A stretch of DNA of 64,000 nt from Ignavibacteriota bacterium (GTDB lineage Bacteria; Bacteroidota; Ignavibacteria; Ignavibacteriales; Melioribacteraceae), in assembly GCA_002698995.1 (NCBI GenBank), contig PAAX01000019.1:248001-312000 (forward strand), read 5' to 3'. The first letter of the stretch is position 1. The number at the start of each line of letters is the position of its first letter. A program made the translations under genes and the position numbers. The notes under the pieces were generated by a model that worked only from the letters and a program-made list of their open reading frames with translations, was not told the DNA's origin and ran no database searches. Positions 61,958-64,000 of this stretch are shown in pieces.

Positions 61958-61987
61958 TGTAGGGACAACTCATGAGTTGTCCCTACA
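61958..61987. repeat. Perfect 30-base palindrome (REP-like)
   Basis: The half-site TGTAGGGACAACTCA (61958-61972) and its reverse complement TGAGTTGTCCCTACA (61973-61987) abut with no spacer. It is built like the element at 62564-62585 (GTAG-A/G-GAC at the outer end, a six-base A/T-C-A-containing centre), so both seem to belong to one REP family. It is far from any stop codon, so termination is not its obvious role. Confidence 0.8.
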
Positions 61988-62070
61988 TTGGAATTGATAG
62001 TTATTAAACATTTTCATTTGCAGGGGACGATCCATCGCGGCGGATTTTATCTCCTACATTGCATCAATGC

Positions 62071-62124
62071 AAACCTCCGAGGTTTTCCCCGAAGCGAGTC
62101 CTTTGGACGAAATCTTGGAGGTTT
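62071..62124. repeat. Stem-loop repeat with AAACCTCC ends
   Basis: AAACCTCC (62071-62078) and GGAGGTTT (62117-62124) are perfect 8-bp arms. The next segments, GAGGTTTTC and GAAATCTTG, pair in part with G-U pairs, and inside lies a small hairpin GTCC-TTT-GGAC (62098-62108). The whole forms a long imperfect hairpin of 54 bases and looks like a REP-type unit. Confidence 0.6.
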
Positions 62125-62158
62125 TAAAGTGAAGTTCAGTGATATTCTATCTTTTAAT

Positions 62159-62208
62159 ATTCCGGCCTGCCTTATCGGCAAGACAGGTAGACCTGCAAGA
62201 ACCGGAAT
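62159..62208. repeat. Imperfect inverted repeat with ATTCCGG/CCGGAAT ends
   Basis: ATTCCGG (62159-62165) and CCGGAAT (62202-62208) bound a 50-base unit with further short hairpins inside (CCTG...CAGG, GCC-TTATC-GGC, AGGT-AG-ACCT). In one plus-strand frame it spells IPACLIGKTGRPARTGMT, similar to the IPA-x-AGMT text made when such REP repeats are read as protein in other genomes. I take it as a mobile or REP repeat, not a gene. Confidence 0.6.
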
Positions 62209-62369
62209 GACGTGGGAAAATTTGCTTGTGTCATACTGGTTTCAGTTTTGCTGAATTCCGGTATATTATTATTTTTTTTCTCATTAAGAATTATGATTTT
62301 GAAATAATTAACACATTCATACGGGTTTTTTATTGTAAAGCTTATGTCTTGAGTCTAGCAGTCTTAAGT

Positions 62370-64000
62370 CTACTTAATTAATAACAATTTCTTTGTTGAT
62401 ACAAACCCGGTTGATGTTTGAAGTCTATAGAAATAGACGCCACTTGCTAAATTAATTGCATTAAATTCAACTTCATATCTTCCAGCAGTTTTCTGTTCAT
62501 TAACCAATGTTGCCACTTCTCTTCCGAGAACATCGTAAACTTGTAATGTTACATTCTGCATTTGAGACGTTGCATGCAACGTCTCTACTTTAGGTATAGT
62601 GTATTCTATTGTGGTTGTGGGATTAAACGGGTTTGGGTAATTCTGAGACAAATTAAACTGTAATGGTAAATTATCTTCATCCCTTTTAACACTTACAGGA
62701 ATATCAGCAAAGTTTTTGTTGTAGCTCGATATTATTTCATTAACATATTCTTTGCCAATAGTTACTGAATTATTTGATGTTGTTCCTCTGGCTAAAACCA
62801 TTGCTCCTAAAACTATTTTTGGTTTTCCTACCTCTAAATCAAATTTACCTGTTGTTACCATCATTCGTTGGTCGAATCCAACAGTATTTATCCAGCCGGT
62901 TTGGCTTTCAGGATCACCCCAATACATATATTTAAATGGGAATAAATTTGAATCAGCCCCTAACTCTGAACCATTACCAAATCCCCAAGATGAAATATGA
63001 AGAGAATCCCCCTTATGACTTTTTCCTCCAAATTGATAATACCTTAATTCAGTAGGATCATCTGGATCACCTATGCTAGGTGTTGATTTCATATATTGCA
63101 TAATAGAATTAGTAATTAAATTCAATGCTCCCGGATAAAAATCTTCTCCTAATAATTCTCCATGTTTTACATAAGCAGTATCTAACGGTAAATCTATTCC
63201 TTCATCATAATTACCATTTCCGTTAATATCATTGTAGCTATTTCCTTTCCAGTATATCGGTGGTCCTTCAAGTATTGTTACAAATGATTCAGGTGCATCT
63301 GCTCCATATTCGTCATCTTCCTCTTTATTGTATATAAATCCGCTTCTACCCTTTATGAATGACCCAACTAAATCATCATTATAATTTCCTAAATCTGTAT
63401 CCTGAGTAAATGAAAAATAGACATCCTCCAATTTATCATCTATAAGTCCTGTGTTTTCTATTTCATATCTAATAAAAATCGTATTGTTAAAAGCATCACT
63501 TGATCCGTTGCTTGATGTAAAACAAGTTACTCTTATTTCTATTCCTTGTGGGTCAACTTTAAATCTTCTCTCTTCTTTTGGAACTCCGTCATTAATTACA
63601 AACCAGAAGGTTTCATTCCCTATTAAATCGGGCTTATCTTCATCAATATCCCACTTACCATTGTTATTTTTATCAACAGGATTATAAACTCCGTCATTAT
63701 CACCATCATAAAATTTTGCACCGAGTTCAACTGCTGTTTTCCACTCTATCCAGCTTTCTCCAAAATCTTTATCGCTTTTCTTCAGTTTATAAATCTTGAG
63801 CTTTGCATCTGCAGGGTCTTCTCCAACTTTACCAGGTAGATAATCGAATATTCGTGAAGCAGTTAGGAAACCATTTGCCCAAAGAGTATCATTTGAATAA
63901 CCGCTTAAATAACTACCTCCGGCAAATAGAAAAGTAATATCATCATAGTAACCATATGCATACTCATCTGCATTCGGAAGTTTTACATCACCAATAGAAC
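62370..64000 (-). CDS. T9SS-secreted protein with C-terminal sorting domain, 5' end outside window
   Basis: The frame is open from the TAG at 62370-62372 to the right edge with no stop, so the start lies beyond base 64000 and about 542 residues are visible. A TTG at 63431 is inside the frame and is not the real start. The C-terminus is a type IX secretion sorting domain: FNLSQNYPNPFNPTTTIEYTIP, then VYDVLGREVATLVNEQKTAGRYEVEFNA and GVYFYRLQT, ending KLLLIK. Upstream parts hold Asp/Asn/Gly-rich calcium-type loops (YDGDNDGVYNPVDKNNNGKWDIDED; DINGNGNYDEGIDLP). The protein is probably exported and bound to the surface. The body has no enzyme motif I recognise. A palindrome is embedded at 62564-62585. 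Confidence 0.9.
   Translation of the reverse strand, partial: SIGDVKLPNADEYAYGYYDDITFLFAGGSYLSGYSNDTLWANGFLTASRIFDYLPGKVGEDPADAKLKIYKLKKSDKDFGESWIEWKTAVELGAKFYDGDNDGVYNPVDKNNNGKWDIDEDKPDLIGNETFWFVINDGVPKEERRFKVDPQGIEIRVTCFTSSNGSSDAFNNTIFIRYEIENTGLIDDKLEDVYFSFTQDTDLGNYNDDLVGSFIKGRSGFIYNKEEDDEYGADAPESFVTILEGPPIYWKGNSYNDINGNGNYDEGIDLPLDTAYVKHGELLGEDFYPGALNLITNSIMQYMKSTPSIGDPDDPTELRYYQFGGKSHKGDSLHISSWGFGNGSELGADSNLFPFKYMYWGDPESQTGWINTVGFDQRMMVTTGKFDLEVGKPKIVLGAMVLARGTTSNNSVTIGKEYVNEIISSYNKNFADIPVSVKRDEDNLPLQFNLSQNYPNPFNPTTTIEYTIPKVETLHATSQMQNVTLQVYDVLGREVATLVNEQKTAGRYEVEFNAINLASGVYFYRLQTSTGFVSTKKLLLIK
62564..62585. repeat. Perfect 22-base palindrome inside the T9SS protein gene
   Basis: GAGACGTTGCA (62564-62574) and TGCAACGTCTC (62575-62585) form a perfect palindrome, and on the gene's strand the sequence reads GTAGAGACG... 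so the outer GTAG of the family is kept on one side only. It codes for V-E-T-L-H-A-T-S between the TIEYTIPK and NVTLQVYDV parts of the sorting domain, a place where related proteins have a short linker. It looks like a REP element now translated in frame. Confidence 0.75.

Follow-up and report, generated by a model that had tools for sequence, protein, structure and literature searches.

A palindrome read within a sorting domain

How does a sequence with the look of a mobile DNA repeat come to be read as part of a protein-secretion signal? The question is raised by a perfect 22-base palindrome, GAGACGTTGCATGCAACGTCTC, at positions 62564-62585 of the window, the whole 64-kb stretch of DNA analysed here. 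The original prediction held that this palindrome shares the build of another at 61958, keeps an outer GTAG on one flank while the other is worn, and is translated in frame as V-E-T-L-H-A-T-S inside a T9SS sorting domain, and on all of these points it was borne out. The window scan recovered the palindrome in fourth place, tied with one other and with 61958-61987 among those ahead; by our own arithmetic, ~0.015 perfect 22-mer palindromes are expected in 64 kb. No second match to GAGACGTTGCATGCAACGTCTC was found within the window at up to three mismatches, and none of 100 shuffles gave a match. Together with its kept outer GTAG (62564-62588, minus strand), whose GTA is a valine codon, the palindrome reads GTAGAGACGTTGCATGCAACGTCTC on the minus strand, and its other flank is AAATGCAGAAT, where intact copies have CTAC. 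The shared build, GTAGRGACN{4,34}GTCYC, has three matches in the window against a shuffle mean of 0.02. The palindrome at 61959-61986, GTAGGGACAACTCATGAGTTGTCCCTAC, lies outside any long frame; identical or nearly so, it is translated at other places of the genome, namely in the sorting domain at C34:33897 (two changes at one end), in loops of secreted domains and in a RAYT-like gene. Two further repeat-like pieces lie beside the host gene at 62020-62210; one, CCTCCGAGGTTTT..GGAGGTTTT, has a relative near C28:195100, and the other is TTCCGGCC..CCGGAA.

The host gene encodes a secreted protein on the minus strand (62370-63998) and runs off the window, its frame being open for 542 amino acids up to the window edge and 608 in the genome. 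At its C-terminus, matches to Pfam PF18962 (5e-11, 43.2 bits; cut-off 27) and NCBIfam TIGR04183 (2.4e-10, 40.2 bits; cut-off 23) identify a 99-residue T9SS type A sorting domain (Por_Secre_tail; 62373-62669, minus strand). The frame reads ..IEYTIP-KVETLHATSQMQN-VTLQVYD.., where KVETLHATSQMQN is a 13-residue linker (62553-62591, minus strand) between the second and third strands. The host domain keeps the conserved motifs of its family but differs from a typical Por_Secre_tail in nine extra residues in the strand 2-3 loop, which come from the DNA repeat. A structure model predicts a seven-stranded beta-sandwich (pLDDT 86.2, 43 rows) with the insert at residues 27-39, between strands 18-25 and 38-46 (block 31-40, pLDDT 68), and by counting strands in this model the insert loop is L-beta2-beta3. 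Foldseek matches were weak, with one at E ≤ 0.001, a macroglobulin domain, and the mirolase sorting domain 8qb1_A also listed (E 0.0069, TM 0.52); a PDB profile search gave a weak match to 8glj_D (E 0.0024). In the available part of PMC11285876, L-beta3-beta4 and the C-terminus are essential, the other loops vary among solved sorting domains, and L-beta2-beta3 of mirolase is much longer and takes another path. The available part of PMC10994853 describes the conserved type A motifs as specifying the fold rather than translocon contacts, a lysine near the C-terminus being a possible exception.

Related palindromes in the genome and in relatives

Genome-wide, the GTAG-R-GAC..GTC-Y-C build has 82 matches counted on both strands, corresponding to 45 places, compared with 4 for the reversed control, and forms a palindromic repeat of 20-40 bp that this one genome carries in many copies. 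In intact copies GTAG pairs with CTAC, and it is left unpaired only where a copy is worn, as in the window; because the defining end of GTAG REPs is an unpaired GTAG, we use the term REP-like and do not assign these repeats to that group. The window palindrome is not confined to this locus, as the original prediction required of a mobile repeat: with the central RY left free it occurs exactly at five genome places, four in sorting domains, and with one mismatch at two more, both in sorting domains. The only exact occurrence of the window's palindrome, with its GTTGC arms, outside sorting domains (C28:195204) stands just before a decayed sorting domain, so a pool of this type outside genes is hardly there. 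Two arm types occur both in sorting domains and outside long frames. Four other genes (L178:1550-1577, L179:2064-2091, L185:109-136 and L189:568-595, on C21, C24, C36 and C1) also carry GTAG palindromes in frame, with arms of two types, in a second kind of loop, that of a repeated secreted domain (..NNYGFEIQRTS-VGTTHELSLQ-WEKIGFVEG..) that may be Fn3-like and for which a Pfam search gave no name. Copies or likely worn copies, VESLRATNLPTEF, VEMLRATSLPTEF and ETLRATSLPTEF, lie in the link just before the sorting domain in L179, L189 and at C28:195204.

Sorting domains of the window's genome were surveyed using 131 of 141 matches (of the ten left out, four were the second piece of a split domain and six were weak or lay at an edge). 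The linker between ..IEYSIP and VSLKVYD.. has four residues in 101 of the 131, is longer in 17 and was unparsed in 13. GTAG-type palindromes occupy this loop in ten of the 131, one of them decayed. VETL[HR]A[TK]SQMQN is found in six sorting domains, and the other inserts are VGTTHELS at C34:33897 (the palindrome at 61959, with two changes at one end), its decayed form at C14:40707 (p 0.33 in the shuffle test alone, counted for its likeness to C34:33897), VEKGHAPS at C24:208104 and VGDANFAS at C17:67213. Longer repeats starting with GTCATT or a worn form of it are present in the same loop at C15:102175 (shuffle test, p 0.003) and, judged by eye, at C17:16254, C24:60981, C31:221083 and C28:194811; six other long linkers gave no significant palindrome by the shuffle test. 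Longer, partly worn palindromic repeats of the GTCATTGCGAG.. and GTCATTTCGAC.. types are translated in this loop, also in L228 and L432. The two domains at C31:221083 and C28:194811 (L130 and L124) carry, besides their linker repeat, an insert NPYGEAIPSGNP (HFSEAIPNGNL) that breaks the otherwise conserved NPFNP motif.

The same pattern is found in a complete relative, G043 (3.74 Mb), from which all 125 listed sorting-domain matches were extracted (9 unparsed). Its loop holds a GTAG-type palindrome in 22 of the 125 domains, in five arm types (VGDEYIRP, 9; VGTTHELS, 6; VGTSRDLS, 5; VETPNRES, 1; VVDAKFAS, 1). Two patterns locate 35 palindrome places in this genome, 19 of them in sorting-domain matches against 0.3 expected, with a further place next to a decayed domain; as the copies are not independent, the binomial value for 19 of 35 serves as a guide only. 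Of the 12 places of the VGDEYIRP type, 9 are in sorting domains and another adjoins a decayed one, so for this type the data do not establish that it arose outside genes. Tandem-like repeats (VKRETSN from TGAAACG-like units; HLVTLSP units) occupy G043 linkers such as those at 3681991, 3377107 and 3570533, and also the loop in L447; the loop thus holds more than palindromes. Across the 240 parsed domains of the two genomes, 29 strong palindromes fall in 3,972 linker bases versus 5 in 58,632 other bases (1 in 15,972 before the linker and 4 in 42,660 after it), and a total of 7 arose when all 256 domains were shuffled by mononucleotide; the excess therefore sits in the loop.

Wider searches returned further examples. 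Among the best 30 loci of a family search (57 genomes, 35 genera), 29 were parsed and 15 have a linker palindrome at p ≤ 0.01, a count that includes the window's genome and was obtained with an insert-carrying query, and so is not a frequency. Arms differ among these relatives (VETGYIPS, VMTGNALS, VGTAHELS, VETRHALS, VGDAKFAS and others). A class search (197 genomes) added 23 loci, five with such a palindrome, of which one is the window's own and three are from other families of the order or class. The best 80 named loci of those listed yielded 71 parsed linkers and 7 palindromes, in sequences named Ignavibacteriae, Ignavibacteriales, Ignavibacteriaceae, Ignavibacterium, Chlorobiota, one Bacteroidetes MAG and Stygiobacter, the last at the limit and in one of two parses. 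These neighbours suggest that the window's genome is itself Ignavibacteria-like. Relatives of the passenger protein in other genomes give a thin comparison, since at 22 of 30 loci no sorting domain could be parsed from the sequence taken. Among the rest, the linker of G002 has 9 residues and no palindrome that stands out, and G036 and G025 have, by eye, a GTCATC-type palindrome and a GTA-type palindrome around GGGGCATGCCCC.

Age, route and candidate mover of the inserts

Inserts are far more alike in codons than the domains around them. The same codon is used for the same residue in 93% of cases in VETL inserts of the window's genome, 92% in VGDEYIRP, 88% in VGTTHELS and 100% in VGTSRDLS, versus 46-55% in 5' flanks and 49-67% in 3' flanks, so the inserts are younger than, or homogenised apart from, the surrounding domains. 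The codon pattern points to a DNA unit that spread or was homogenised recently. That the peptide might be an old conserved part of the domain, which the original prediction had named as a refuting outcome, was rejected on this codon test and on the four-residue linkers of 101 of the 131 domains, and relatives carry other palindromes instead. Reading frame is uniform: in the parsed domains of both surveyed genomes, the first GTN of every GTAG-type insert is a codon, GTA, or GTT or GTG in worn copies. For 27 listed inserts, the frame xxG-TAG was always stopped and the third frame was open in 20; this list was partly gathered by first-frame queries, a bias of which the two genome surveys are free.

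The window's own copy belongs to a 36-nt block (62553-62588, minus strand), the palindrome plus the tail AAATGCAGAAT, that is common to six sorting domains. The block is 86-97% identical among these six VETL domains, their flanks are 53-88% identical, and all six have in common a tail that is not palindromic and an end worn in the same way. Homology extends along the passenger in three of the six genes, at 63-64% identity to the window's gene. On a tree built without the linkers, the closest domain is C14:3867, which carries no insert; the window domain forms a mosaic with it, the two being 88% identical in the domain's final part. The shared block and the mosaic domain suggest that the window copy probably spread with or between sorting domains, arriving with the block by duplication or conversion rather than by a jump of its own. 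The original prediction called the palindrome direct evidence that a mobile repeat had been accepted as coding sequence; that reading is supported, but 'direct' is too strong for the window copy, because six sorting domains share the block with its non-palindromic tail and worn end.

On the linker-free tree of 233 domains, a weak tree of short domains from which 23 of 256 were dropped (parse failure or short), 18 changes suffice for 32 GTAG-insert tips (shuffled mean 30.4, minimum 24), so inserts cluster partly, yet are not one clade. For VETL, 3 changes suffice for 6 tips. One ancient insert whose arms changed by compensatory mutation is not favoured, though it may apply to some types, given uncompensated mismatches in C3:1765 and C31:27220 and two arm types outside long frames.

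Candidate movers are encoded in the window's genome and in its relatives: RAYT (REP-associated tyrosine transposase) family matches are present in 45 of 54 family genomes, 17 with a match over cut-off, and the window's genome has eight, none over cut-off. One RAYT-like ORF at C31:261222 (L145) scores 64.4 bits with NF047646 (below the cut-off of 80) and 23.8 bits with Y1_Tnp (cut-off 23). It stands between two copies of GTAGGGACAACTCATGAGTTGTCCCTAC (GTAGGGACAACTC palindromes), and a third copy lies in frame inside it. From this arrangement and from published work (available parts of PMC2817692 and PMC3733652), we infer that RAYTs may move GTAG-type palindromes; that the repeats are probably mobile is read from their sequence. 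No RAYT was linked to the GTTGC arms; among four Y1_Tnp loci inspected, L145 alone has GTAG palindromes, and these are of another arm type. We note that the RAYT-like genes L145 (1642-1669), L210 (1501-1528), L218 (1501-1524) and L450 have, in the loop that follows an H-x-H-G-I motif, an in-frame palindrome or what is left of one, and the palindrome there in L145 is the one that also flanks the gene; a motif scan of 33 RAYT loci gave five ORFs, four with a palindrome or trace in this loop, which is not to be read as a frequency. At C28:101041-104760, three GTAG palindromes with two types of arm are found no more than ~4 kb from a RAYT-family match.

Competing explanations and meaning

The explanation we favour, with a probability of roughly 0.8, is that a REP-like GTAG palindrome, spread by RAYTs, was translated in the strand 2-3 loop of a sorting domain and then copied between domains. 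It is consistent with same-build palindromes of varied arms both outside long frames and in the loop, in this genome and in relatives. RAYTs would spread the repeats, most insertions into genes would be lost, and those in frame in the permissive strand 2-3 loop would survive, since this loop lacks the fold-defining motifs and the conserved lysine. From its first sorting domain, the unit would then be carried into others as genes were duplicated or short tracts converted, and the window's own copy is likely to have come this way. A tolerant loop would be the plainest reason for the insert pattern, and the peptide itself most likely has no function. For the window copy, a narrower account with somewhat less than an even chance is that the palindrome entered one sorting domain once and thereafter travelled only within sorting domains, by duplication and conversion, as what is now a domain polymorphism. 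This account overlaps with the route just given, and it draws on the tail and worn end shared by six domains, the three genes homologous along the passenger, the mosaic with C14:3867 and the few tree changes needed for VETL. However, it leaves unexplained the different arms at the same loop, within the genome and between genera, as well as the recurrence of these palindromes in other genes and beyond long frames, and the conserved tract stops at the repeat and its tail with both flanks diverged.

Other accounts assign the pattern to the site, the peptide or chance. It is unlikely that the loop is a DNA-level target of the transposase, beyond mere tolerance: one codon phase and a narrow range of positions are seen across unrelated repeat types, and AAC or AAT precedes GTAG in 18 of 25 listed sorting-domain copies, but flanks are diverse for copies outside genes in the same list, and tolerance fits better given that the pattern extends to loops of other secreted domains, to RAYT-like genes and to tandem-like repeats. 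Still less credit is due to a functional peptide, for instance in translocon or sortase contact or in spacing, kept by protein-level selection. The single frame of the GTAG inserts in both surveyed genomes, with a second frame open in 20 of the 27 listed, would suit such a role, as would three G043 domains in which the repeat end supplies the strand residues LSLRVYD. However, the arms and hence the peptides differ (VETLHATS, VGTSRDLS, VGDEYIRP, VGDANFAS), most domains of both genomes have no insert, and codon identity of the inserts far exceeds that of their flanks. A chance palindrome in a linker of variable length has a negligible probability and was rejected on the shuffles (0 of 100), the 82 matches against 4 in the control, recurrence in the genome and relatives, and the contrast in density between linker and non-linker bases.

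As described in the available part of Di Nocera 2013 (PMC3733652), GTAG-tagged REPs are short palindromes with many copies and a GTAG end that is described as unpaired, and RAYT genes are flanked by copies; some copies are inside reading frames of varied unrelated proteins, with one shared intragenic site named, in recB of two Xanthomonas, and otherwise different sites. The present repeats resemble them in the GTAG end, the many copies and the in-frame copies, and may do so in their link to RAYT genes, given the one RAYT-like gene, below cut-off, between two copies; they differ in pairing GTAG with CTAC in intact copies and in filling one homologous loop many times with different palindromes rather than lying in scattered proteins. 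Rickettsia palindromic elements, as that source portrays them, are likewise in frame within genes and translated, but have other sequences and hosts and are spread over many unrelated proteins. Intragenic REPs are known from Rickettsia and Opitutus, and a Caldithrix paper, in the part available, concerns a different REP; judged by titles and abstract openings, the papers listed in a literature search treat intragenic REPs but none describes REPs in sorting domains. What is new is that several repeat families have used a single loop of a secretion signal over and over. A broader and doubtful extension is that, in Ignavibacteria-like bacteria, the strand 2-3 loop is a standing harbour in which several unrelated families of mobile palindromes persist as translated sequence and pass from domain to domain with arms swapped, the shared palindromes seeding short-tract conversion that would reshuffle sorting domains across the secretome.

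Numbering about 125-130 homologues per surveyed genome, some with an insert and some without, and showing a like pattern in relatives, these sorting domains form a natural, replicated record of likely mobile DNA taken up as protein. This record makes it possible to test how repeats select coding sites or persist in them, how much insertion a secretion signal can bear and whether repeats drive conversion between paralogous domains, and it would account for the odd linker peptides (VETLHATSLQ, VGTTHELSLQ and similar) in T9SS sorting-domain proteins.
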